A stretch of 35,289 bases of DNA from Nitrospirota bacterium (lineage in GTDB: Bacteria > Nitrospirota > Thermodesulfovibrionia > Thermodesulfovibrionales > UBA1546), in NCBI GenBank assembly GCA_021824065.1, contig JAKALU010000012.1, forward strand, positions 1 to 35,289. The letters run 5' to 3'. Positions 18,067 through 31,536 of this stretch are shown here, in pieces. The translations under genes were made by a program, and so were the position numbers. Position 1 is the first letter of the stretch. Every line of letters starts with the position of its first letter. The notes beneath the pieces were generated by a model. That model was not told where the DNA came from. It saw only the letters and a program-made list of their open reading frames with translations, and ran no database searches.

Positions 18067-19251
18067 TCAGATTCTATTCCTATTCAAAAGCCTTTCATAT
18101 AATGATTCAACCTTGTCGAGCATTGCCTCCATGGAATAATTCTTTTCAACGAGCCTTCTGCCTGCCTTTCCGAATTTAACCCTGAGTTCAGGGTTTCTAT
18201 AGAGTTCGATAACCTTTTCCGAAAGCTGTCCGGGATTCTTAGGTTCAATGAGAAATCCTGTTTCTTTATCAATGACTATCTCTTTTATTGCTCCTGCATC
18301 AGAGGCTACAACAGGTCTTTCCATTGCCATTGCCTGGAGTATGGATTGAGGCACACCCTCATTTGCATATGAAGGATGGACAATAACATCAAGGGAAGCT
18401 AATATTTCAGGAATGTCATCTCTATGCCCGAGCATAAAAACTTTGCTTTCAAGAGAGAATTCTTTAACCATATCTTTTATGTTCTGAAATTGTGGCCCAT
18501 CACCCACTATATAGAAAACTGAATCAGGGATCGCATTCGATATTGCCGGGACCGCCTCTATAAAATACCTGTGTCCCTTCCAGCTCCTGAGAACAGAGAC
18601 CATCCCTATTGAAAAATATTTTTTTAATCCCTCCTCCCCCTCCGACAAATCCCCCCACCCCCCCTTTACTAAAGGGGGGTAAGGGGGGATTACTTTATTA
18701 ACGGTGTGATTTTTTAATTGAAAAACTGGTTTAACTTTTGCTGGATTAAAGCGCTCCATGTCCACACCTGTTGGTATAGAAGAAATTTTCTCCCCGTTAA
18801 ACTTGTTGTGCTCAATCATCCTCTGTCCTATTTCCTCGCCGGTGGTAATTACAGCATCAGGCAGTATGTTATATATTAATCTGCTTAATGGATTCCTGCC
18901 GATGGGTGTTGAGAGATGTCTTGTCCTCAGGATTAGTGGTTTTAATCCAGAAAGCTTCGCAGCAATTGTAGCTACCCAGCTATCAGAGGAGCTATGTGTA
19001 TTCACAATATCTATTCTTCTTTCCTTAATCAATGTGGCAAGCCTCATAACATTCAATGGGTTTTTTTTGTTGAAAGACATGGGAAATACAACAATATCGT
19101 TGCTCTTTGCTTTGCTGAATATCATGCTATCTTCAGGCGCTGCAATATAAACCTTATGCCCCCTCTTAATCATACCGAGGGATTCCTGTATTATCCTGAT
19201 CTCCTGACCTCCCCAGCCTTTTGACGATTCTGTATGCAGTATTGTAAGCAT
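18067..19251 (-). CDS. GT4 glycosyltransferase with a palindromic insert
   Basis: This 394-residue GT-B retaining transferase has the N-terminal motif HTESSKGWGGQEIRIIQE, ISSIPTGVDMERFNP in the linker, IGMVSVLRSWKGHRYFIEA at the start of the C-terminal domain, and the donor-site region VHPSYANEGVPQSILQAMAMERPVVASD with the E(x7)E pair. The stretch VIPPYPPLVKGGWGDLSEGEEG, about 25 residues before the C-terminal domain, does not belong to the family and comes from a palindromic insert (18629-18691). The ORF track starts at a TTG (19254); the next codon is ATG (19251), which overlaps the upstream stop as TGATG and is the better start. Substrate unknown; part of the LPS cluster. Confidence 0.85.
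   Translation of the reverse strand: MLTILHTESSKGWGGQEIRIIQESLGMIKRGHKVYIAAPEDSMIFSKAKSNDIVVFPMSFNKKNPLNVMRLATLIKERRIDIVNTHSSSDSWVATIAAKLSGLKPLILRTRHLSTPIGRNPLSRLIYNILPDAVITTGEEIGQRMIEHNKFNGEKISSIPTGVDMERFNPAKVKPVFQLKNHTVNKVIPPYPPLVKGGWGDLSEGEEGLKKYFSIGMVSVLRSWKGHRYFIEAVPAISNAIPDSVFYIVGDGPQFQNIKDMVKEFSLESKVFMLGHRDDIPEILASLDVIVHPSYANEGVPQSILQAMAMERPVVASDAGAIKEIVIDKETGFLIEPKNPGQLSEKVIELYRNPELRVKFGKAGRRLVEKNYSMEAMLDKVESLYERLLNRNRI
18629..18691. repeat. C/G-run palindromic insert in GT4 gene
   Basis: AATCCCCCCACCCCCCCTTTA on one side faces TAAAGGGGGGTAAGGGGGGA on the other. On the coding strand it reads IPPYPPLVKGGWGDLSEGEE, a peptide I know as a recurring artefact of dispersed repeats in several bacterial groups. 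It is in frame and sits in the linker between the two GT-B domains. Confidence 0.78.
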
Positions 19252-20387
19252 CAACTTTCTGCCAGACCAGCAAGCTTTATTGCTTCTGTAAATTCACGCA
19301 CTGCCCTTTCGATAGGAAAATTTTCAGCCTTCTCTCTTGCCTTTTCCCCCATGACTTTTAGATTCTTCAGGGTAAGATTTATCTTATCAGCCAATTCTCC
19401 TGAATCAGAAAGTTTATCCAGAACAAAGCCCTCATTCCCATTTTCTATAAGTTCGGCTACACCATTATTTTTTGTCGTGATTACAGGAAGCCCTGATGCC
19501 ATTGCCTCCAAAGTGGCATTGCTGAAAGGGTCGTATAACGTTGGCAATACAAATATGTCTGCTGCTGCATAGAATCTTTCTATCCCTCTCTGAGGTTCAA
19601 GAAAAACAACCCTGTCAGAAATTCTATGCCTTTCTGCCAACTCTTTATATTTGCCTGTGTTACTCTTACCAATAACCAAAACCTTTATGTCCTCGCTTTT
19701 TATTAAAGCAACAGAATCTATAAGGGTCCTCAGCCCTTTTCTCTCAAAGCCAGACCCAACAAAAAGTATTATCTTTAAATCTTCGGATAAGCTAAAGTCT
19801 TTTCTCACATCCTTACGCAATATGTTTTTATTTTCCGGGGTAAATCTATTTAAATCAACCCCATTATATATTGTAATTATCCTTTCCTCTGGAACAGCAT
19901 AATGTTTTATTATCTGGTTTTTCACCATTTTTGAGTTTGCAACTATAAGCTTTGTATCTGAAAAAAGCCTTTTTTCAAGACTGAGAAGCGAGATATGAAG
20001 GGGATCTATCTTGAATGAAAGGTTTTTGTAAAATGGCTCAATTTTTGACCGTATCTCCAACCACTCTGCGTGACATCCCTCTCCAGCCCTGTATATATCC
20101 TGACAGGTCGTGCGCTCAAAACTTATGACACAGTCAAATTTTTTGAGTTTTGAGCTTTGAGTTCTTAGTTTTGAGTTTATGCTGACGTTAAATGTCACTG
20201 TACTGAGGAATGAGGTAAGAGGCAGAAGATTCACCTTGTGGAAAGTTACGCCTTTCTCCTCCGGCCATTCATTCGCAAATATCTGTATCTCATGTCCTGC
20301 CCTTTTAAGATGTTCAATAAGGGTCTGAAGATACCTTTCCGCCCCTCCTTCGATAGAAAATTTCTTTTTTATAAATGCAAGTCTCAT
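19251..20387 (-). CDS. GT4 glycosyltransferase with a heptamer-repeat insert
   Basis: This 378-residue enzyme has the GT4 N-terminus LAFIKKKFSIEGGAERYLQTLIEHLKRAGHEIQIFA, the linker ITIYNGVDLNRFTPEN, the domain start IILFVGSGFERKGLRTLIDSV, and the donor-site region VLPTLYDPFSNATLEAMASGLPVITTKNNG. The opening resembles WaaG-type LPS glucosyltransferases. The stretch SKLRTQSSKLKK (near residue 75) is encoded by five copies of a 7-base unit (20141-20175). It is the first gene of the long minus-strand LPS operon; its promoter must lie in 20388-20458, shared with the tRNA promoter on the other strand. Confidence 0.87.
   Translation of the reverse strand: MRLAFIKKKFSIEGGAERYLQTLIEHLKRAGHEIQIFANEWPEEKGVTFHKVNLLPLTSFLSTVTFNVSINSKLRTQSSKLKKFDCVISFERTTCQDIYRAGEGCHAEWLEIRSKIEPFYKNLSFKIDPLHISLLSLEKRLFSDTKLIVANSKMVKNQIIKHYAVPEERIITIYNGVDLNRFTPENKNILRKDVRKDFSLSEDLKIILFVGSGFERKGLRTLIDSVALIKSEDIKVLVIGKSNTGKYKELAERHRISDRVVFLEPQRGIERFYAAADIFVLPTLYDPFSNATLEAMASGLPVITTKNNGVAELIENGNEGFVLDKLSDSGELADKINLTLKNLKVMGEKAREKAENFPIERAVREFTEAIKLAGLAES
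20141..20175. repeat. 7-bp tandem repeat inside GT4 gene
   Basis: TTTTGAG is repeated five times, with one copy degenerate (TTCTTAG) and one CTTTGAG. The coding strand reads NSKLRTQSSKLK. It lies in a loop of the N-terminal GT-B domain and keeps the frame. Confidence 0.8.
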
Positions 20388-20420
20388 TAGAGAATTATAT
20401 TACTACATATAGCCAGTTGA

Positions 20421-20450
20421 TTGACAATATTGGTATTCATAGGTTACGAT
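20421..20450 (+). promoter_or_regulatory. Promoter of tRNA-fMet
   Basis: TTGACA (20421-20426), an 18-base spacer and TACGAT (20445-20450) end 8 bases before the mature tRNA. The perfect -35 box and correct distance make this a credible sigma-70-type promoter. Confidence 0.65.
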
Positions 20451-20458
20451 AAAAACAT

Positions 20459-20536
<78 letters not shown>

Positions 20537-20565
20537 ATAAAAATGCTTAATCTCCAATAGATTAG

Positions 20566-20602
20566 AGGCTGTCATAGCAAAATGTTATGACAGCCTTTTT
20601 TT
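20566..20602 (+). terminator. Rho-independent terminator after tRNA-fMet
   Basis: An 11-bp perfect stem AGGCTGTCATA / TATGACAGCCT with a 9-base loop is followed by a run of seven T. It lies 30 bases after the tRNA and inside the island, so it came with the element or was recreated at integration. Confidence 0.9.
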
Positions 20603-20656
20603 ACCAGCAGGACAGTTACAGGACAGTAAATTTAAATCTATTTTTATCACTCAAAT

Positions 20657-20959
20657 ATGTCAAAAGACAAAGACAATAAGAGTCATCCCATAGTCTCCAT
20701 GGACAAAGAAGAAAGAGAAGAAATCTGGGACGAGGCTTATCTGAAAGAAGAAGGCATTGTTCTTGAATTCAATCCTGATACAAACACAGGCAAAATAAAA
20801 TCTCTCAGCGATAACGGCATCTATAATATTGACAGTCGTGAACTTATAAGAACGAATATTGAATTAAGACCTGGCGATAAAGTTTTATTTGCCCCCCTTG
20901 AAGACCCCGATGGCAATGATTATGCAAGGATAGTCAGGATAATTGAGCTAAACACTTAA
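20657..20959 (+). CDS. Cold-shock-domain-like protein
   Basis: This 100-residue protein has an acidic/charged N-terminus (about 30 residues) and then an OB-fold-like stretch, EEGIVLEFNPDTNTGKIKSLSDNGIYNIDSRELI...LRPGDKVLFAPLEDPDGNDYARIVRI. This resembles the cold-shock domain layout (G-I-V...G-x-I...V-x-F), with the RNA-binding aromatic motifs weakly kept. It might bind RNA or DNA. No Shine-Dalgarno precedes the ATG. It is the first island gene, next to the terminator and pointing away from the tRNA, where an integrase gene would often be found. Confidence 0.6.
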   Translation: MSKDKDNKSHPIVSMDKEEREEIWDEAYLKEEGIVLEFNPDTNTGKIKSLSDNGIYNIDSRELIRTNIELRPGDKVLFAPLEDPDGNDYARIVRIIELNT

Positions 20960-21033
20960 ATTTTAAACCTTCAATAAATTCAGACACCAATTCCGCTAGA
21001 ATTTTGCAGCGTTAAGTTGTAACGCAGAGGAAT

Positions 21034-21660
21034 CTATTCATCCATAGAATATTTGCTTATGTCCTTTATCCTATCCATTATATATTGGCCAATATTCTCG
21101 TAATCGTTACCTGCTTCGCTTACATCTATCGGCATTCCAAATGTCACCCGTATTTTTGCGGGTCGGGGCAGTAGTGCGCCTTGAGGGAGGAGTTTATCAG
21201 TCCCCTCAATTAACGCAGGCACAATCTTCACTTTGCATATGGAAGCGATCATCCCTATGCCGTTTTTGGGCTGTAGGCGACTGGCGCTTATGTTTCTACT
21301 TCCCTCTGGGAATATAACAACAATCATCCCTTCCGCAAGCTCCCGAATGGCTCTTTTTATTGAGGAGGCACCGGGATTTTGCCTCTTAACAGGAAATGCG
21401 TAATAACTCACTATATGCTTTAGCACTGGAATGTCGAAGAGTTCATGCCTTGCCATGAAGCGACAGCCTCCGGTGATCACGGTTGCTAAGAGAGGGGGAT
21501 CTACATAACTCAGATGGTTAGGTGCAATAATAATACCGCCTTTTCTGGGAATATTTTTAATACCCTTTACTTCCAATCCGCCGAATATTTTAAAAAAGGG
21601 CTGTGAAAAACAGAGGGGTATAAATCTGTATATGATTCTACCGCAGAGCTTTTTTATCAC
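21034..21660 (-). CDS. 1-acylglycerol-3-phosphate acyltransferase-like (PlsC family)
   Basis: This 208-residue member of the LPLAT family has block I NHLSYVDPP (NHx4D, His49 and Asp54), block II around FMARHELFDIPVLKHIVSYYAFPVKR, block III FPEGSRN, and a proline-bearing block IV (VKIVPALIEGTDKLLP). It would transfer an acyl chain to a glycerolipid or to another lipid in the inner membrane. The start codon is GTG with GGAG upstream. It follows the GT2 gene by 2 bases, with a CrtI-like gene and an MMPL stump before that, so it may acylate a glycosylated envelope lipid or pigment; this role is inference. Confidence 0.85.
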   Translation of the reverse strand: MIKKLCGRIIYRFIPLCFSQPFFKIFGGLEVKGIKNIPRKGGIIIAPNHLSYVDPPLLATVITGGCRFMARHELFDIPVLKHIVSYYAFPVKRQNPGASSIKRAIRELAEGMIVVIFPEGSRNISASRLQPKNGIGMIASICKVKIVPALIEGTDKLLPQGALLPRPAKIRVTFGMPIDVSEAGNDYENIGQYIMDRIKDISKYSMDE

Positions 21661-21662
21661 AA

Positions 21663-22691
21663 CTATACTCTCCAGATGTGCGGATAAAATTTCTCCATGA
21701 ATCCATCTACCATGTTGATTTCAAGTTTAAATTGATTCAATATTTTTTCAAGTATAGTTACAATTAGTAATATAGGCAACATAAGTGATGCAATGGTAAT
21801 TTTAAAAAATCCGCAGTTGAGTTTTCTGATTGCTGGGTAGTTATTAATGACTCCATGCAGCACTGTATATTCAATCAAAAACAGCACACTTGCAGGCAGC
21901 GCACTAAAAACAGTTATTACCTGAAAGATGCGATCAATTATTTTGGGTTTTCTTATTAAATCATGAATATTATTTTTTGAATATGTAAAGGGTTTATTTG
22001 AGACCAGTCCTTCTTTTAGCCATTTAATGTGGAGATAAGAAATTACATACGCCGTTATTGCTACAATATCCATTATCGGTCTGAAATGGCTGCCATTGTC
22101 TCCATATATGGTTTTGACTTTAACAAACCGAATTGTTCCCCCCATATCTCCTGCCTTCATTAATATTTCTGTTTCCGTAACATATTTCTCAGTTGTCAGA
22201 CATATTTTTTTTATCAATGAAAGGGGATAAAGTCTGAATCCGCACTGGGTATCCTCTACGAATTGATTTGCAGCGAGGGAAATATAGAATCGAGCAATAT
22301 GCATAGAATTATACCTTGCCCTTGGAATCCTCTCCTTCTCATGCATTCTTGTGCCGACAATTATATCTTCTGGATACATGTTATGATCATTTAAAAAAAA
22401 GGGTATATCATCCGGGTCATGCTGGCCGTCCGCGTCTAAGCTGATTACAGATTTATATCCATATTCCTCGGCTTTTTTAAAAAGAATTTTTAATGCATTG
22501 CCTTTCCCCCTGTTTCGGTCTATCTTGATTACATCTGCACCGGCAAGAGATGCAGCAATTGCAGTATCATCGGCAGAGCCATCATCGGCAACAAGAACCC
22601 TATCTACATACTTTAATGCGCCTTTGACGACACTCTTTATGGTTTTAGATGCATTATATGCAGGAATTATGACACAGAGATTAGATGTCAA
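21663..22691 (-). CDS. GT2 glycosyltransferase with C-terminal membrane segments
   Basis: The N-terminal GT-A domain (residues 4-230) shows VIIPAYNASKTIKSVV, VADDGSADDT, the RGKGNALK motif and DADGQHDPDD, with the DxD metal site at Asp86 and Asp88. This matches polyprenyl-phosphate mannosyl/glucosyltransferases (DPM1-like). The C-terminal 100 residues contain two likely membrane helices (about 265-285 and 295-315). It ends in TAG, showing that UAG is an ordinary stop inside the island too. It overlaps the CrtI-like gene by 11 bases. Confidence 0.86.
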   Translation of the reverse strand: MTSNLCVIIPAYNASKTIKSVVKGALKYVDRVLVADDGSADDTAIAASLAGADVIKIDRNRGKGNALKILFKKAEEYGYKSVISLDADGQHDPDDIPFFLNDHNMYPEDIIVGTRMHEKERIPRARYNSMHIARFYISLAANQFVEDTQCGFRLYPLSLIKKICLTTEKYVTETEILMKAGDMGGTIRFVKVKTIYGDNGSHFRPIMDIVAITAYVISYLHIKWLKEGLVSNKPFTYSKNNIHDLIRKPKIIDRIFQVITVFSALPASVLFLIEYTVLHGVINNYPAIRKLNCGFFKITIASLMLPILLIVTILEKILNQFKLEINMVDGFMEKFYPHIWRV

Positions 22692-24135
22692 CCTTCATAC
22701 CCTCCCTTTCGAGAATCTCACTCGCTGCCCTAGCACCTGAATATGCAGCAGCCAGAACCCCACCCCCCATATCACCCCAGTGGCCAGCTATATATAGATT
22801 CTTTATCCCGTGCCTTCTTGTTCCTCGAAAGCCGGGGGCTTGTTTCCAGCCGAATGCCGCGCCGTTGAAGTTCATAGTATACCTGTTAAGAGTTTTGGGT
22901 GTCGCACAATCGAGAGTCACAATCCTCTCTCTTATGCCGGGGATTATCTTTTCCGCTTTTTTAATAATTTTTTCCGTGCAAAGCGCTTTGTCTATTGCCC
23001 TGCCTGTAGTCTCTACCATCTCATGCAGAACCACTGTGCCGAAACCTTCAGGAGCACGCGATTTATCTTCGAGGCTTGCCGCGGTCATACCGATGGTCGA
23101 ATCCTCTCCGAACTCCATCTCCCGAGAGAAAAAACTTTCAATATCATAAGAAGGGAAATAACCTATGCTTGAGTGTCTGCCAGTATCTCCTTTGATGCCA
23201 GCATATAAAATAAAGAAAGATGTCGAAACACCCGGATTGCGCATTAGTTCGTCAGTAAAGGATGAATATTTTCCTCCCAAGAGTGAATTAAAGGTATGAC
23301 AAAAATCCGCGTTTGAGATTATATATCGCGCTGCATATTCTTCTCCGTTTTCGCATATAACGCCTACGCATCTCTCCCGATTATCCATAAGAATCCGCCT
23401 TGCTCCATTGCCAAGGATTGCTTGTCCGCCAATGTCTATTATACCGGTAAGCATAGCATCGGCAAGTTTCTGAAAGCCCCCGACTGTTCTGCACGCGCCG
23501 AGGCTGAAATAGCTCATTATCATATTAATCATTGTAAAGGCTGAAACCCTTGAAGGGGGGAGGCCTATAAAAGGGCATCTGTCGGACAATACAGCTTTAA
23601 GCCTATTGTCGCCTATATATTCATTCAGATAATCTTCATATGAACTGTTCATCGTCTTTAAAATATCAGAATTTATTTCATAGAGCTCTTGCCTTCCGGA
23701 AATGGAAGCATTAATCGCGGATTGCGCGTCTGAATATATCCTATCGGCTTTTTCAAAGAGCTTTTTTATTGAATCGGCAGAAGACGGAAATATGACCGAG
23801 AGCCTGTCTATATATGCGTCTATGTCTTTATCGACCACAATCTCAAAGTCCGGAAATTTGCTTACTCTTATAGGATCCAGTATGTTAAAACTTATGTTCT
23901 TCTCGATTTTAAGGACTTCCATCGTCTTATATATCAGTCCTCCTGAATTAACTCCTGATATTGAATCCAACGCAGAATCGAAAATAAAACCGTTTCTTTT
24001 AAAAGAAGAAAGATAACCGCCTGGCGTGATATGTCTTTCGATAATCAGAGTCTTTAACCCCTTTGATGAAAGCATACCGGCGCTTACGAGGCCTCCTATC
24101 CCGCTGCCTATGACTATGGCGTCAAAATTTTTCAT
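22681..24135 (-). CDS. CrtI-like FAD-dependent oxidoreductase
   Basis: This 484-residue protein has the N-terminal FAD motif AIVIGSGIGGLVSAGMLSSKG, the second motif IIERHITPGGYLSSFKRNGFIFD, and the C-terminal FAD-binding pattern GIKNLYIAGHWGDMGGGVLAAAYSGARAA. It belongs to the phytoene desaturase/CrtISO/retinol-saturase group. Length and both ends look complete. With a PlsC-like acyltransferase, a GT2 enzyme and an MMPL exporter fragment next to it, modification and export of a long-chain or polyene envelope lipid is a reasonable guess. The substrate is not knowable from sequence alone. Confidence 0.85.
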   Translation of the reverse strand: MKNFDAIVIGSGIGGLVSAGMLSSKGLKTLIIERHITPGGYLSSFKRNGFIFDSALDSISGVNSGGLIYKTMEVLKIEKNISFNILDPIRVSKFPDFEIVVDKDIDAYIDRLSVIFPSSADSIKKLFEKADRIYSDAQSAINASISGRQELYEINSDILKTMNSSYEDYLNEYIGDNRLKAVLSDRCPFIGLPPSRVSAFTMINMIMSYFSLGACRTVGGFQKLADAMLTGIIDIGGQAILGNGARRILMDNRERCVGVICENGEEYAARYIISNADFCHTFNSLLGGKYSSFTDELMRNPGVSTSFFILYAGIKGDTGRHSSIGYFPSYDIESFFSREMEFGEDSTIGMTAASLEDKSRAPEGFGTVVLHEMVETTGRAIDKALCTEKIIKKAEKIIPGIRERIVTLDCATPKTLNRYTMNFNGAAFGWKQAPGFRGTRRHGIKNLYIAGHWGDMGGGVLAAAYSGARAASEILEREGMKVDI

Positions 24136-24136
24136 A

Positions 24137-24649
24137 TTACAGCTTATCTCCGAAAAGATATAGCAATGCCGGAAGCGTAAGCAGCGCGGCAGCTGCGCAG
24201 AATACAGCCCCTATCGTAAGAACAAGGCCTACGGACGCAATCCCTGCAAACTTAGCTGTTATAAGGCTTCCGCACCCAGCCACTGTCGTTGCTGCGCACA
24301 TCATAACATTTTTACCAGACAGCCGGAGAGCACTACCGGCATCTCTTCTTTCTTCCATCAGAAAAGCATTCATAACATAAATCCCGTAATCCACGCCGAG
24401 ACCGAAAAGCAAGGCAAGAGTGCCGATATTGATAAAGTTAAAGGGCGCGTTTATATAGCCCATAATGCCGGGCACAAACAAAAATCCGAGTGTCACCGGA
24501 AGCATAACCAACAATGTATATTTCGCCTTTTTAAAGAAAAGGTGAATAATAATAATATTTAGAAAAAGTGTTGCCGCAACTGCAAGGCTGCTCCCGCGTA
24601 TTATTGATGCCTTTATTTCCCCGAATAAAACAGGCATTCCGGTCAGTAT
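24137..24649 (-). pseudogene. C-terminal stump of an MMPL/RND-family lipid exporter
   Basis: About 170 residues remain of a family that usually has 750-1000. The remnant has four to five membrane helices with the MMPL signature NFINIGTLALLFGLGVDYGIYVMNAFLMEE, ATTVAGCGSLITAKFAGIASVG and the end LPALLYLFGDKL. No Shine-Dalgarno precedes the track's Met (24637). The frame runs upstream through ILTG to a TGA at 24650-24652, where it meets the end of the recombinase-like ORF. With the N-terminal half and the periplasmic loop missing it should not transport. The tail of the recombinase-like ORF (IVSYITLLRAAIE) would read naturally into ILTGMPVLFGEI after a -1 shift, so part of that tail may be MMPL-derived. 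Confidence 0.85.
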
Positions 24650-26670
24650 TCAATCGCCGCTCTTAGCAGCGTAATATATGAAACTATATTTTCCTTTAGA
24701 GGAACGAATCTTGAGCCGTATCCTAAATCAGATGGACTGTTGCTATCTGCCTTCAGATTTTCAGATTTCATACCTGATGAACCCAATAAGCATTTATTCT
24801 CCGCTTCAGGCACCAGATATTTTCTTACGATCTTCCTATGGGCCATTTTGGTTTCTTCTATGTTCAGCAATATCTTTTTATGGACAATTTCAGAAACGCT
24901 CAAATATTTTTCTTCAAGATGCTGAGCCGGTACATGTATATAATGCAGGGTGGATACATAGAGCCTGTAGTCCTGTCCGCTTACGTAGCAGGCAAGTATC
25001 GGATCTAGTCCATAGCGCGAGGAATACGTAGAAAAAAAAGAAAATGCAAGCGATGAAATTGTGATTGGCAATGCTGTTTTGTTTAGGCCCTGATTGACCT
25101 GTTTGAGAAAGGAGGAAACCATATCAAGGTTAATTGATGCTTTGTTATAGGGTGATCTTAAGGAAAAGAAAAATCCGTCGTTTTCCTTATCGACTGGGGA
25201 CTCATCTATCAATTTGCAAATGACATGAGGCAGCGGCACCATCACTGACTCGGAGACCTTTCTACAGAGATTGTTTCCTTCAATTTTTGATTTCAAAAAA
25301 ACCAGAGGTGGTTTATATAAAACGTATCGGCCATTTGACCTGGAGATGTAAATATGCTGTTCCTTGAAATTTAGCCTATTCCTTGGATCATTGATATTCC
25401 AGAGGCTGAAAAGCAGCCTCGGTTCAGTACCGGTATGCATTACAAGTATTATGAAAATAACTATACTTTTTTCTATGTCCTAAAACTTGTTCCACGATTC
25501 CGCGATATACGAATAAATCAAAGAGTAATGGTGCAATTTATCGTAATTTTTTTCCCAAAAAAACATGTGTGAGCGAAGATTAAGCGTATCTACCCATCTG
25601 TGCTTTAAACTTGGCGGCCGGGGAACGGCTTTTTCAATGGCATCCTGCTTCGAATCGTTCGTGTCACTTTGACTATGATCATAAAGCAAGTCAAAATGGA
25701 TTAATTCCTCATGGTCTATGAATTCATCATCCAAATCCTCGTGAGTTAGCTGATTCATAAAAATAGACGCTGCCGTTACGCGAGTCGTTGAAAATTTATC
25801 ATCGTCATTGTCACTGTCAGTCCTGGTTCCGCTTATTGTGGTATCAGTTAATCCCGGCCTTCTTATGTAGGGATAAGCCGTTGTTGTATCAGGTGAGCCA
25901 TGGGCATGAGAATGAATGTCTTCGTTCTCGATTAAGATCCTGATGAGCTTTTTCTCGTATTCTGTAGCGGCATGCCCTGCCTTGTCGCTTACATTCCCCC
26001 ATTCAATCTTATCGTAATTTCTGAACGCGTCCTTGATGAGTTCAAGTAAAAAATCATCATCCTCGTGTTGTTTTTCAAGTAGCTCTTCGTCATATTTTTT
26101 CTGTTCATTTGCATAGACGAAAAAATATCTGAATGCCCTTAGATAATCGCACTCAGTACCATCAACAAGATTGGACGACATTACTTTTTTAATCCCATTA
26201 AAAAATCTAATGCAGTAAAATCTAAAAAGAGGAGATACGTCATTTTTTATAAAGGTTATAGGGGGACTTTTTTTATTCACATAATGACCCGAAGCAACCA
26301 CATAAAAAATAAACACTGGATGCTCCGTCATATTTACTTTCCTGTTGTATTTTAGAGCCGGAGATTTTTCAATAAAGCCAAACCATTTGGTTAAAAGATC
26401 TGTGAGGAAAATCTCTTCCGCTGCTTCCATATCTTTGTGCAAGCATAGTTGCCTCAGCAACTCCAGCAAGGCTCTTTTGCCCTGCAGTATGCCGTGCAGA
26501 TCCGTAGGCGGACAAATTAATGCCAGTACGCTGTTCAGCAACATCTTAATTTCATCCGCACTAAGAGAAAATTCTTGTGAAAGAGCTAAAATGTAGTCCT
26601 CGTCATGGTCAAATGTCTGCTCTACAGTCACCAGTTTCTTAACCTTATCAACAATTTTTTTAATGTCCAC
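24643..26670 (-). pseudogene. Large tyrosine-recombinase-like protein split by an in-frame TAG
   Basis: The track's two ORFs (396 aa at 25480-26670 and 265 aa at 24643-25440) are one frame: the first ends in TAG at 25482-25480, then 13 sense codons (DIEKSIVIFIILV) run into the second. Read through, it is about 675 residues. The join rebuilds a recombinase helix, SIVIFIILVMHTGTEPRLLFSL, like the ATGLRxxELL box. Further on come VMVPLPHVICKLI, then ITISSLAFSFFSTYSSRYGLD where HxLRHTFAT is expected, and LHYIHVPAQHLEEKY with the terminal Tyr. The catalytic positions read Glu for Arg I, Ser and Ala for HxxR, and Gln for the GH His; only the Tyr remains. The start is GTG with GGAGG, coupled to the zinc-ribbon gene by an 11-base overlap. 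The second ORF's ATG has no ribosome site, so it is not an independent gene. The N-terminal ~370 residues match no domain I recognise and include an acidic Asp/Ser/Thr-rich linker. Confidence 0.7.
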
Positions 26671-27394
26671 AATCTTTCACCTCCTCACGATACTTACAGG
26701 TTTTACCTCCCCTAAAATTACCCGCGCAACCCAAAAAACTTTTATTGCCACGCGTGCGGATAAAAAGGCTCTCACTGCCGCATTTTTCGCATGTTTTGGA
26801 AGTTTTTCGTAGCCATGACTTAGTAGGATATTTATTCGCCCAGAAGAGTTGTGCTTCGTCTACCGACAAATAAGCCCTGAAATCACAGGGGCTTTTCTTG
26901 TTTTGTTTGCCGAAGCAGGTTACCTTGTAAAACCCCTTTTTAGCGCCCTCTTCTTCCGGTTTTCTGTATTTTGGCCTCTGCAAAATTTTTCCGCATAATG
27001 GACACAGCATCATGGCAGCTTTTCGCCTTCGCCTGGATAACATCGCAGGCGTCACATTACCTTTAGCTCCCTTAGCTCGTGATCCCGAGCATAAAACCTC
27101 CAAGTCCACCGTTTCCATCGATAGGACTTTTTCATATTCGTCAGGATCGGCTATAAGTGCGGGGATTTTCGTGTGCTTTCCATTGCCGTGCATTAGGACA
27201 TCGTATGCATAGTGTCTGGCAATTAGAACATATCCGCCGTTCTGCGATAAAAAGATGGGCGGTTTTGACCGGCAGTAAATCGGCAATGCCTCGCCGTAAG
27301 TTTTATGCAGTAATCTGATAAGGGCTTCGTTGTCCGGATTTTTCCCGGAAAATCTTATCTCCGACCGTGAAAGGTCAAGTTCTACTATTTTCAT
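26660..27394 (-). CDS. Double zinc-ribbon protein (topoisomerase-type C4 fingers)
   Basis: This 244-residue protein has an unrecognised N-terminal part (1-125), a basic stretch SRRRRKAAM, and two C4 zinc ribbons. The first uses Cys131, Cys134, Cys160 and Cys170 (CPLC...C...C). The second uses Cys202, Cys205, Cys223 and Cys233 (CEKCGSESLFIRTRGNKSFLGC), very like the C-terminal fingers of type IA topoisomerases. No topoisomerase catalytic domain is present. Binding of single-stranded or nicked DNA is the family expectation. The start has a strong AAGGAGG. Its last 11 bases overlap the start of the recombinase-like gene, so the two were built as one operon and may act together on DNA. Confidence 0.65.
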   Translation of the reverse strand: MKIVELDLSRSEIRFSGKNPDNEALIRLLHKTYGEALPIYCRSKPPIFLSQNGGYVLIARHYAYDVLMHGNGKHTKIPALIADPDEYEKVLSMETVDLEVLCSGSRAKGAKGNVTPAMLSRRRRKAAMMLCPLCGKILQRPKYRKPEEEGAKKGFYKVTCFGKQNKKSPCDFRAYLSVDEAQLFWANKYPTKSWLRKTSKTCEKCGSESLFIRTRGNKSFLGCAGNFRGGKTCKYREEVKDCGH

Positions 27395-27431
27395 GATTCC
27401 TCCTTAAAGTTAGTCTCTTTCTTATACTTCA

Positions 27432-27472
27432 AGGGGAATAGCGCTCTGGCTGTCAGCCACAACACTTCCCCT
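27432..27472. promoter_or_regulatory. Nested inverted repeat upstream of the zinc-ribbon gene
   Basis: AGGGGAA (27432-27438) pairs with TTCCCCT (27466-27472) around an inner palindrome TGGCTGTCAGCCA. It lies 38-78 bases upstream of the zinc-ribbon start in the divergent region shared with abiEi. It could be an operator or a leader hairpin; which one cannot be told here. Confidence 0.45.
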
Positions 27473-27534
27473 AGTATATATATTACTTACCATTAGTGAC
27501 ACTTCAGGCCGATCTGGCATAGAAGGCGATATTT

Positions 27535-27557
27535 GATTCCATTTCTCTTATGGAATC
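27535..27557. promoter_or_regulatory. Candidate AbiEi operator (8-bp perfect inverted repeat)
   Basis: GATTCCAT, seven bases, ATGGAATC, 62 bases upstream of the abiEi start. AbiEi antitoxins are known to bind inverted repeats in their own promoter and repress it, so this is a natural candidate. Binding itself is inference. Confidence 0.45.
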
Positions 27558-27618
27558 GGTCATTTTTAGGTGAAAATTCTTATTGATTTTTTAGGGGCAG
27601 TTCCTGTAATGTTATATC

Positions 27619-28455
27619 ATGAGCGTCATAACCGGTCATAACAAGCCCGTGAAAGGCATACAAAATATAACACGTGGTTCGCTGGGGAGGTCTGAGGCCA
27701 GATTTTTGGCTAAGGTCAGCGCCAAGGCCACATTCACGACAAGCGAATCGCAGAAAATACTTGGTTACAAGGGTGAAGATTCGACACAGAAGTTCCTTAA
27801 ACGTCTTCAAGCTAAAGGATGGATCAGGCGTATCAGACGGGGAAGATTTGCCGTAATCCCGCTTTCATCAGGAGAAAACCGTACTCCGCAACTCCACGAA
27901 TTCATTATTGCCATGGAGCTTGTGTCGCCGGCGGCTATTGCGTACTGGTCTGCACTTAATCATCACGGCATGACCGAACAATTGCCCAGAACCGTGTTTA
28001 TTGCAACAAACCATCCTGTGAGGCGACGGCCTGGCGAGGTGTTCGGCGTTAGGTACAATATCATCTCTTTGCGGCCTGAAAAGTTCTTTGGCAATATGAG
28101 GGACTGGATTGATGAAATGCCTTTTATGGTTACAGACCGCGAAAAGACTATCATTGATGGGCTGGATCTTCCGCAATATGTAGGCGGCGTAGAGGAAATC
28201 GCCAAGGCACTTTCAAACGCATGGGATCAGCTTGACGAAGCCAAACTTAGGAAATATGCTGCTAAGATCGGAAATACCGCCGCTGCAAAGCGACTAGGCT
28301 TTCTCATGGAAACATTCGGATTAGGGAATATTGAAGCCCTCCGTAAAGAGGTCTCCCTTGCGTCTGGTTTCTCGCCGCTTGACCCTACACTGCCGCGACA
28401 TGGGAAATACAACCGCCGATGGGGGCTCCTTGTTAACGCGGAGATTAAGGCATGA
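27619..28455 (+). CDS. abiEi: Type IV antitoxin AbiEi-like
   Basis: This 278-residue protein has an N-terminal winged helix (about residues 35-85: FTTSESQKILGY, FLKRLQAKGWIRRIRRGRFAVIPL) and the AbiEi body with AIAYWSALNHHGMTEQLPRTVFIAT, and ITDREKTIIDGLDLPQYVGGVEEI-like helices (seen as VTDREKTIIDGLDLPQYVGG). In type IV toxin-antitoxin pairs it autoregulates the operon and counteracts the AbiEii nucleotidyltransferase without stable contact. It overlaps abiEii by 4 bases (ATGA). The start lacks a clear Shine-Dalgarno. Confidence 0.87.
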   Translation: MSVITGHNKPVKGIQNITRGSLGRSEARFLAKVSAKATFTTSESQKILGYKGEDSTQKFLKRLQAKGWIRRIRRGRFAVIPLSSGENRTPQLHEFIIAMELVSPAAIAYWSALNHHGMTEQLPRTVFIATNHPVRRRPGEVFGVRYNIISLRPEKFFGNMRDWIDEMPFMVTDREKTIIDGLDLPQYVGGVEEIAKALSNAWDQLDEAKLRKYAAKIGNTAAAKRLGFLMETFGLGNIEALRKEVSLASGFSPLDPTLPRHGKYNRRWGLLVNAEIKA

Positions 28456-29279
28456 TTACAACTGCTGAACTGCACCGCACAGCAGAGGATGACGGCCTCC
28501 GATTCGATCAGGCTGAAAAGGATTATGTTATCCTTTGGATGCTTTATGGACTATCTCGGTCAAGCGCATCAAGGCACGGCTGGGTATTTAAAGGCGGAAC
28601 CTGCCTGAGACATTGCTATTACGCGGGGTACCGATTCTCAGAGGACATAGATTTCAGCTGCAAGCCGGGCGGGGATAATCTCGAAGCATCATTAAGATTA
28701 TTGCAAGGAGTTGCTGACCGAATCCAGAGCGAATCAGGAATCAGAATTACGATAAAAAAACCGCTCACGATTCCGGGTGACTTTCAGATAGAAATTCCAA
28801 TTGAGTACAGCAGGGGCGGTACCCGCAGGCAGGGACTTCCTCAAGTCAAGATTCATCTAACATTTGATGAGCCGGTGCTTGAAACCCCAGTTGCCTGCTC
28901 AATCAAGCCGCGATATTCAGACATTTCTACATTTAAAGTTCTCTCCTATACAAAACAGGAGATTGTTGCGGAGAAATTGCGCTCTCTTCTTCAGCAGCAG
29001 AAGAAATGGCCACGTCCCAGAGATTTATATGACCTCTGGTATATGCTGTGTCGTTCTGGCGAACATTTCGCATGGAACAAATTGCTGCCAATGTTTCAGG
29101 AAAAGTGCAGTGTCAGGGACATAAAGCCCGACCTTGCTGGATTGATATCGAATAACCTAAGGGATTGGAATAAAAATGCCTGGCAGGACCGCTTAGGCCC
29201 AATGCTAAACGACGTTCCGGATTTTGATAGTGTATGGAAGGAATGGACAGAGACATTTCGCAAGCTTGCCAGATTATAA
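28452..29279 (+). CDS. abiEii: Type IV toxin AbiEii-like nucleotidyltransferase
   Basis: This 275-residue protein has the polymerase-beta-type motif KGGTCLRHCYYAGYRFSEDIDF (Lys47-Gly-Gly-Thr50; Asp65 and Asp67), and downstream KQEIVAEKLRSLL and PRPRDLYDLWYML, the other conserved blocks of AbiEii. The toxin family (for example MenT) blocks translation by adding nucleotides to tRNA, but the target of this member is unknown. All metal and substrate residues I can check are present, so it looks active. A GGAG precedes the start. Confidence 0.88.
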   Translation: MITTAELHRTAEDDGLRFDQAEKDYVILWMLYGLSRSSASRHGWVFKGGTCLRHCYYAGYRFSEDIDFSCKPGGDNLEASLRLLQGVADRIQSESGIRITIKKPLTIPGDFQIEIPIEYSRGGTRRQGLPQVKIHLTFDEPVLETPVACSIKPRYSDISTFKVLSYTKQEIVAEKLRSLLQQQKKWPRPRDLYDLWYMLCRSGEHFAWNKLLPMFQEKCSVRDIKPDLAGLISNNLRDWNKNAWQDRLGPMLNDVPDFDSVWKEWTETFRKLARL

Positions 29280-29372
29280 CTTCGCTTTTGAAAAATTTAC
29301 ATTCATGGAAACATGAGGTAGTTCATAGGGAGTTGAATTTGACTGTTAGCTTAAAATCATAAATAAACATAT

Positions 29373-29636
29373 ATGGAAAAGAAAGAACTTATAAAAAGAT
29401 ACACTGAGATGCACGGCAATCTTTTAGGGCAAAGAGATGATCTATATATTAAAGTTGCCTCTTTGATAAAAGAAATGGATCATATCGGAATTACAGACAG
29501 GTACGAAAGGGAAGTAAAAAAGCTCTCTCTTTTAGAAAAAGAGATTGGAAGCAACAAAGACTTGGATACGCTAAAATCTTTAGCCACTTCTTTATTTCAA
29601 CCAAAAGCAATGCAGGCTGACGGGGAAGTGGCATAA
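29373..29636 (+). CDS. Small helical protein, unrecognised
   Basis: An 87-residue, highly charged and probably all-helical protein (RDDLYIKVASLIKEMDHIG and VKKLSLLEKEIGSNKDLDTLK) with heptad-like spacing. I do not recognise the family. No Shine-Dalgarno; a TAAAAT box is 16 bases upstream of the ATG. First of a run of plus-strand small ORFs that fills the right end of the island. Confidence 0.5.
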   Translation: MEKKELIKRYTEMHGNLLGQRDDLYIKVASLIKEMDHIGITDRYEREVKKLSLLEKEIGSNKDLDTLKSLATSLFQPKAMQADGEVA

Positions 29637-29741
29637 TAAAAAAACACGCCGTTTCTGTTATATTTGATCATTCCCGTGGCAAGACTTTATCTAAGCTCAA
29701 AGATGGCTATCCATTGTCGAAGTTTGTTAAAATAATTTCGT

Positions 29742-30092
29742 ATGGGATTAAAAAACTATACAAAGGCTACCCCTCCAAAATGTAAATTCTGCAGCCACAT
29801 AGAAGAAAATGACCCCCAAAGGATCTTAACCCGCTTTATAGATGAATTCGATCAGGACGTGGTGATGGTTTCATGTCCTACCCTTCGCTGTGGGTGGGGC
29901 TGGCTTGTTGAGTATGCTTATAAGCATGTAGTTATAGAAGATGAATCATCCATCAGCAAGGGGCTGCTAAAGCTATTAGGGTGTAAGGAAAAAGACCTGA
30001 TAAAAGGGACCCCTGAGAAAGACACTAAACCAACAGGGCTTGAACTCCTTACAAGACTCTTTGGACCTCTCATTATCATAGACAAAAAATGA
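29742..30092 (+). CDS. Small protein with four cysteines, unrecognised
   Basis: 116 residues with CKFC near residue 14 and CPTLRC near residue 45, a spacing that could hold zinc, followed by GWGWLVEYAYKHVVIEDE and a Lys-rich middle. No known family comes to mind. The ATG has no Shine-Dalgarno but a TAAAAT box ends 8 bases before it, which would suit a leaderless transcript. It overlaps the next ORF by 4 bases (ATGA). Confidence 0.5.
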   Translation: MGLKNYTKATPPKCKFCSHIEENDPQRILTRFIDEFDQDVVMVSCPTLRCGWGWLVEYAYKHVVIEDESSISKGLLKLLGCKEKDLIKGTPEKDTKPTGLELLTRLFGPLIIIDKK

Positions 30093-30454
30093 CCGACATG
30101 GATACCTATATCGACATATCAAACAAAAAGTGTAATAAGGACAGGGTGATAATAGGAAGAAAAGTAAACGACCTTATCCACTCAAAAGAAGGCCTTTGGG
30201 TTAAAATCGCGGAGCTTGCAAGGACAATTGACTATTGCCTTATTGAGTCCTTCAACGAACGCACTGCGCTCAATGAGGCCGGAGGATGCTCAGGCGCAGT
30301 TGTAACTACAACCGAAGATATGACTCCCGAGGAAGAGGAGATGGAGCTTTTTGCAGGATTTCTCAAAGAAGGATACCCTGAAGATATAGCGGCAAAGAAG
30401 GCTAAGCAATGGCTGGCTTTTATGAAAGAAGCGTTTGACAAAGATAAAAAATAA
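30089..30454 (+). CDS. Small helical protein, unrecognised
   Basis: 121 residues; a Lys-rich N-terminus, helix LWVKIAELARTIDYCLIESFNER, a low-complexity acidic stretch MTPEEEEMELFAGFL, and a basic C-terminus. The second half (FLKEGYPEDIAAKKAKQWLAFM) looks like an amphipathic helix pair. Overlap by ATGA with the cysteine-bearing ORF before it suggests the two are cotranslated. Function unknown. Confidence 0.5.
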   Translation: MTDMDTYIDISNKKCNKDRVIIGRKVNDLIHSKEGLWVKIAELARTIDYCLIESFNERTALNEAGGCSGAVVTTTEDMTPEEEEMELFAGFLKEGYPEDIAAKKAKQWLAFMKEAFDKDKK

Positions 30455-30484
30455 AATCTTATTACATCCTATACCAAGAATCTC

Positions 30485-30673
30485 ATGAACACTGACGATA
30501 AACATTCTCTTTCTTCCGCATTACGCCAAAGGCTTAAAGAAGAGCTTTCTAATCCTGAATTCATCAAGCTGCTTGAAATAAGCGCTAAGATTGGGGAACT
30601 CGTCTTTAAACTAGAGGAGAAATACAACCTCCCTGATACTGACAAGGCAATGATGCCCTCTGGAGATGGGTGA
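30485..30673 (+). CDS. Small protein, unrecognised
   Basis: 62 residues with one or two helices (LRQRLKEELSNPEFIKLLEISAKIGELVFKLEEKY) and a short Pro/Gly tail. No Shine-Dalgarno. Supported only by its place in the same-strand run and by a normal residue mix. Confidence 0.4.
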   Translation: MNTDDKHSLSSALRQRLKEELSNPEFIKLLEISAKIGELVFKLEEKYNLPDTDKAMMPSGDG

Positions 30674-30679
30674 TCATTA

Positions 30680-30814
30680 ATGCTGCTGGACTTTATTCAG
30701 CGTCTCATTCCGGATGCCGTGGAACTACCGGAACTGGAATCCCTGATCAAAGAGGAAATACTTCAAAGGCAGAAATATAAAAAATCAAAGGGCATGCCGA
30801 CAGTTATCAATTAA
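30680..30814 (+). CDS. Possible 44-residue peptide gene
   Basis: Too short for the ORF track. ATG at 30680, 6 bases after the previous stop, runs to TAA at 30812-30814: MLLDFIQRLIPDAVELPELE... then a basic end KKSKGMPTVIN. A GGTGAT just upstream is a weak ribosome site. The amphipathic start and tight spacing support it; nothing identifies a function. Confidence 0.35.
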   Translation: MLLDFIQRLIPDAVELPELESLIKEEILQRQKYKKSKGMPTVIN

Positions 30815-30860
30815 ATCCAAAGCAACAGATCACTTCGATGATAAAAATTAAAGCATTCTA

Positions 30861-30880
30861 AAAGTATAAAAAAGTATAAA
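30861..30880. repeat. 10-bp perfect tandem repeat near attR
   Basis: AAAGTATAAA twice in direct tandem, 94 bases inside the right tRNA repeat. Integrase arm-type sites are short direct repeats at about this distance from the core, but AT-rich sequence can give such repeats by chance. Confidence 0.5.
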
Positions 30881-30973
30881 AAAACGGCACAAAAAAAATA
30901 AAGATAATCTTAAGTGGTATTAAATGGGGCTTATGAATCGTAACTCATTGTTTTTAAAGAATTTTACATAGAA

Positions 30974-31019
30974 CTCATAACCCGAAGGTCAGAGGTTCAA
31001 ATCCTCTCCCCGCCACCAA
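30974..31019 (+). repeat. Right attachment repeat (attR), 3' part of tRNA-fMet
   Basis: 46 bases identical to 20491-20536, from the anticodon loop CTCATAA through CCA plus one base. Before it the sequence is ACATAGAA, not the tRNA 5' half, so no functional tRNA is encoded here. Confidence 0.9.
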
Positions 31020-31139
31020 TAAATTCAAAAAGATACAAAACGCCTAACTGAAAGCCGAAGTCCACCTTTCTGCCCGATGGAGATGCAGAAACAGTTTATT
31101 GAAAGACGAAAGAAGGCAGCAGAAATTGCTTTTGTTTGA

Positions 31140-31174
31140 GGGATTGTAAAGGTGCAATGCAGCTTTACAATCCC
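31140..31174 (-). terminator. Hairpin downstream of the DUF5684 gene
   Basis: GGGATTGTAAAG and CTTTACAATCCC form a perfect 12-bp stem with an 11-base loop, 21 bases beyond the DUF5684 stop on the minus strand. The T-tract that should follow is poor, so termination is likely but not certain. Confidence 0.5.
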
Positions 31175-31194
31175 TTCTATATCCCTTAGATTTC

Positions 31195-31536
31195 CTATGC
31201 TGTGTATTGGGCGTCGCCGAATCCAAGAATCGGATAGAATATAAATGGCAAGAGGATTAACCCTACAACAAAGCCTGTTCCTTTACCAAATTTTTTTGCA
31301 AGACTCGCAAGCGCAATGATACCTGCTACGATGTTGATTAGGGGGATGAATAGAAGAACAAGCCACCAGCCTGGTTTGCCTGCAATTTGCAGGAATACAT
31401 AAGCATTGTAGATTGGGATTAAAACAGCCCAGCCCGGCTTCCCTGCTTTAACAAATACTTTCCACAGTGCCGCAATCATAACCACCATGACTGCAAGCCA
31501 GACAATAATAATGATGCCGCCTCCGCTATTCCCCAT
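31195..31536 (-). CDS. DUF5684 small membrane protein
   Basis: 113 residues with about three or four hydrophobic segments and the family pattern AGKPGWAVLIPIYNAYVFLQIAGKPGWWLVLLFIPLINIVAGIIALASLAKKFGK. Function unknown; related proteins occur widely in bacteria as stand-alone membrane proteins. The start has GGAG seven bases upstream. It is the first host gene outside the island's right repeat and faces it. Confidence 0.8.
   Translation of the reverse strand: MGNSGGGIIIIVWLAVMVVMIAALWKVFVKAGKPGWAVLIPIYNAYVFLQIAGKPGWWLVLLFIPLINIVAGIIALASLAKKFGKGTGFVVGLILLPFIFYPILGFGDAQYTA

Follow-up and report, generated by a model that had tools for sequence, protein, structure and literature searches.

The window, by which we mean the whole 35,289-nucleotide stretch of Nitrospirota DNA analysed here, holds a 10.5 kb island (window 20459-31019) that lies between a tRNA-Met gene and a repeat of that gene's 3' half. 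The two attachment repeats are identical at 46 of 47 positions, and a search of the genome with the 46-base core, allowing up to 3 mismatches, returned only these two copies. The features of the island are given below, along with their counterparts in a near-identical contig (L002) and in a genome of the same family and another genus (G008).

20459-20535 (+): tRNA-Met gene (anticodon CAT; ARAGORN), the integration target
20490-20536 (+): attachment repeat inside tRNA-Met, from the anticodon loop to the CCA end
21034-24135 (-): lipid-type operon inside the island
21034-21660 (-): acyltransferase of the lipid-type operon
21663-22691 (-): GT2 of the lipid-type operon
22681-24135 (-): CrtI-like amine oxidase of the lipid-type operon
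24137-24637 (-): MMPL/HpnN-like transporter gene lacking its N-terminal part; of about 830-875 aa, 166 remain
24644-24656 (-): junction at which recombinase A homology ends and MMPL homology begins (about 24649)
24643-25479 (-): same-frame continuation of recombinase A with its first recombinase-like domain (HTGxxPR ... HY) and a TGA just past the junction; 71.5% identical to G008
25482-25480 (-): in-frame TAG, codon 397; Ser in relatives (TCG in L002, TCT in G008)
25480-26670 (-): recombinase A gene, 5' part, with 396 codons before the TAG; identity to the G008 homologue 67.7%
26660-27394 (-): Zn-ribbon protein, 244 aa, overlapping the recombinase A start (Pfam Zn_ribbon_recom, E 1e-5)
27619-29279 (+): AbiEi/AbiEii toxin-antitoxin pair carried as cargo of the island; the G008 element has an AbiEi of 92% identity
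29373-29636 (+): element ORF of 87 aa, with an 87% identical counterpart in G008
30973-31019 (+): second attachment repeat, with 1 mismatch, at the right end of the island

The island resembles those that form at the 3' ends of tRNA genes via tyrosine recombinases, both in its tRNA-Met gene with a 47-bp direct repeat of the 3' end standing 10.5 kb off at the far boundary, and in what the repeats enclose, namely remnants of recombinases together with an AbiE pair and a lipid operon as cargo. It differs from them in having no intact integrase, with recombinase A truncated and recombinase B absent. The island of the window appears immobile, and a degraded tRNA island is hereby shown in an uncultivated Nitrospirota lineage. 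Part of its cargo has counterparts elsewhere, as the gene order MMPL-oxidase-GT2 is kept in three other genomes (G002, G353, G400). Just to the right of the island's right repeat, at window 31139-31175, lies a 37-bp near-perfect palindrome that is terminator-like.

The interrupted frame and its TAG codon

Translating the minus strand at 24643-26670 gave 676 positions, with a GTG start preceded by GGAGG, one internal TAG and a terminal TGA (24645-24643), in agreement with the original prediction that two adjacent ORFs form one frame with a single TAG. Its further claim of an ATG at 25440, in frame, 14 codons past the TAG and without a ribosome site, was confirmed, no Shine-Dalgarno site being found in the sequence upstream. 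One stop at most in 675 codons has a chance probability of about 2e-19 (composition of its own strand), a stop count so far below chance that 24643-26670 is therefore a coding sequence. Between the window and the G008 recombinase A, dN/dS was 0.29, rising to about 1 across the last 76 codons, which would be as expected of a recombinase A that was constrained until recently and is variable near the inter-domain linker. Apart from the TAG and a truncation at its 3' end the frame is without frameshifts and looks constrained, and a shortened recombinase A product may keep some role. The frame drew no match in Pfam, and single-sequence structure prediction of the uninterrupted L002 protein gave no usable fold (pLDDT 33).

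The L002 locus, the one locus returned by the genome-contig search, is contig JAKAKQ010000295.1, metagenome-derived and from a Nitrospirae MAG. Aligned with window 19204-31440, it runs for 12,237 bp without gaps and with one mismatch only, at base 25481, where the TAG of the window is TCG (Ser) in L002. Across the shared contig of about 22 kb, two bases differ in all besides an N-run, and the second of them lies 9 bases from the end of the window's contig. The G008 homologue, 71% identical over the frame, is uninterrupted and has TCT at the TAG codon, and no in-frame stop inside the match was found in the other homologues from 396 genomes of the phylum. That the two ORFs are one broken gene was thereby upheld, with homologues uninterrupted at the TAG, the near-identical contig differing only there, and both parts kept in one frame in homologues, where separate genes throughout would have spoken against it. 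The sense codon had been anticipated as Gln or Trp and turned out to be Ser (TCG, TCT) in both near relatives found, and therefore the TAG is recent or an error. On these sequence comparisons, we take it that the TAG either arose by mutation very recently or is an error of one assembly, in both cases ordinary decay or error and not a new decoding trick.

The TAG could also be purely an assembly or base-call error, in which case the organism would have Ser and the gene would still be a truncated remnant, and to this we give close to, though somewhat under, an even chance. Both near relatives have a Ser codon, and of the two differing bases in about 22 kb the one that is not at the contig end is the TAG itself. 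The difference is a G to T on the plus strand, which is a common oxidative artefact. Against this, one base in 22 kb is equally expected from population variation.

The L002 contig is binned in G311 (as C165), a MAG of another family than the window's. At its acetolactate synthase the window shares 91-93% identity with most members of its own family and 85% with G311, and the L002 contig is probably misbinned in this JAKAKQ MAG. Sampling 474 kb and 369 kb for the difference rate between the two bins gave no match above 98% other than the contig they share (C32 and C11 versus C165).

Truncation of recombinase A at the junction with the MMPL gene

As a single frame the 675 codons held up; as a complete gene they did not, for homologues extend about 200 codons beyond them, and the G008 homologue has 875 codons, open throughout. 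The window copy is without the last ~210 codons, which hold the Arg-Lys-RHxxR-GH catalytic motifs, and the rest of the frame, previously described as intact, is missing its 3' end and fused to a truncated transporter gene. Window and G008 sequences match to about 24649 and then diverge. Beyond this point the 166-aa MMPL ORF aligns to the end of the HpnN model (residues 700-856 of 862), without the first ~660 codons of the gene. Its nearest intact homologues have 875 aa (G353) and 828 aa (G002), and after them, too, come the oxidase and GT2 genes. Read from these alignments, two genes (recombinase A and MMPL) are cut at one junction.

What is left of the frame falls short of the complete catalytic set of a tyrosine recombinase (Phage_integrase, PF00589; R-K-HxxR-H-Y), as it keeps the first domain only, with Tyr present, no HxxR and a non-conserved Arg. 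The TGxR box that had been singled out in the original prediction belongs to this degenerate first recombinase-like domain, and the motif-bearing domain is gone. Recombinase B (828 codons) is likewise gone from its place after recombinase A in the island.

With good confidence, we interpret the frame as what remains, as a pseudogene, of recombinase A, the second of three genes in a module of an integrative element, with a subsequent TAG or error. Such an element would have entered the 3' end of tRNA-Met, after which a deletion or similar rearrangement may have fused recombinase A to MMPL and stripped the island of its recombinases, so that selection would no longer have acted on recombinase A. 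The TAG would then be either a nonsense mutation that arose afterwards in part of the population or a mistake of base calling or assembly, and the gene, if expressed, would yield a 396-aa product without either recombinase-like domain. A decayed recombinase in a tRNA-integrated island is, as a phenomenon, ordinary.

We regard it as improbable that the junction at 24649 is instead an assembly chimera and that the living gene is full length. Both neighbour genes are cut at the same point, and a chimera common to both assemblies is conceivable if both come from the same reads, but the junction is identical base for base in two separately binned assemblies, and the missing 3' part does not turn up elsewhere: in the window's genome (96% complete), the C-terminal 212 aa of recombinase A were absent and recombinase B gave one weak 26% match only.

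Decoding of the TAG codon

Amber suppression or stop reassignment would be marked by TAG inside several genes, by TAG unused as a stop and by loss of release factor 1 (RF1). RF1 is present, TAG ends 6 of the 33 window genes, and an internal stop occurs in no gene but the recombinase frame, in line with the earlier judgement that genome-wide amber suppression is unlikely. Programmed readthrough would be marked by a stop conserved in homologues, and the stop is conserved neither in the near-identical contig nor in G008 nor in the other matched homologues.

A functional 675-aa protein made by reading through or suppressing the TAG is thus very improbable. Downstream of the TAG, 278 codons stay open and show constraint against G008, but this constraint is accounted for by the history before the break, and the RF1 gene, the six window genes ending in TAG and the ordinary Ser codon of the near-identical contig all weigh the other way, as does the catalytic motif domain that would still be missing from the product. 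Given the Ser codon of the near-identical copy, and with the motif-bearing domain lacking from what lies downstream, readthrough is without need or support, and it would be predicted to restore no enzyme. Of the origins first proposed for the stop (recent, error, or read through), the Ser of L002 favours the first two, whereas RF1, the Ser copy and the lack of a catalytic domain speak strongly against the third, and a candidate case of stop-codon readthrough is removed. Scarcely credible is a reading as two genes in which translation of the 265-aa ORF begins at ATG 25440. This ATG does stand in frame 14 codons after the stop but has no Shine-Dalgarno site, and the two parts share one frame in homologues.

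The three-gene module and related elements

In related Nitrospirota the intact module consists of three overlapping genes, for a Zn-ribbon protein, recombinase A and recombinase B (L007:4088-9902, L113-L123). An overlapping recombinase B follows A in ten further Nitrospirota loci, and a Zn-ribbon-like gene precedes A in most of the closer loci. In intact relatives, recombinase B matches Phage_integrase and carries every residue of the Arg-Lys-HxxR-H-Tyr set. Recombinase A has two recombinase-like domains that are mutually related by profile comparison (probability 80%, E 1.5e-5), while the same comparison of its domain 1 with the catalytic domain of B gave nothing. Domain 1, kept in the window, has an invariant Tyr and no HxxR, and the Arg of its HTGxxPR is non-conserved (R, K, Y, H, S or Q in relatives); domain 2, which the window lacks, carries Arg, Lys, RHxxR and GH, with Tyr absent in most members. 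As a tentative and rather doubtful proposal, recombinase A might have a composite active site in which the Tyr of domain 1 is donated to domain 2, with B as the complete partner, or else A might be a catalytically dead partner of B. This module is the sole part of the locus that is of wider interest, and the way in which catalytic residues are distributed in A merits attention.

Among Pfam and NCBIfam models, none reached its cut-off for recombinase A, the Zn protein had a Zn-ribbon domain match only, and recombinase B had general integrase matches only. GInts (ginABCD) comprise three integrases and a small HLH protein, with 10-17-nt repeats at protein genes (Bardaji 2017, PMC5385486). The present module is like them in having several tyrosine recombinases in one operon at one island end with variable cargo, and differs in having one Zn-ribbon protein and two ~850-aa proteins with a 47-bp tRNA repeat, its conserved set being Zn-ribbon, A and B in place of the three integrases ginABC plus ginD. 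With the Gamma-mobile-trio (GmtY and partners) it shares a three-gene make-up that includes a tyrosine recombinase, but recombinase B scored 14.4 bits with the NCBIfam model of GmtY, whose cut-off is 340, and neither recombinase A nor the Zn protein was matched, placing the module outside that group.

Searches of viral contigs and of plasmids returned no relative. In G008, the element has in common with the window the tRNA-Met repeat, AbiEi, the Zn-ribbon and recombinase A genes and the ORF of 87 aa; it further contains recombinase B (828 aa) and an integrase of 391 aa, and its tRNA end did not turn up in C9:1-90000. G011 (L005) holds a third copy, in which the tRNA repeat lies directly upstream of the Zn-ribbon gene and the recombinase A start, where the contig ends. 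The Zn-ribbon gene of G008 (L007:9178-9902) carries a seeming frameshift near its end, giving 208 aa against 244 in the window, and the G008 element may be damaged too.
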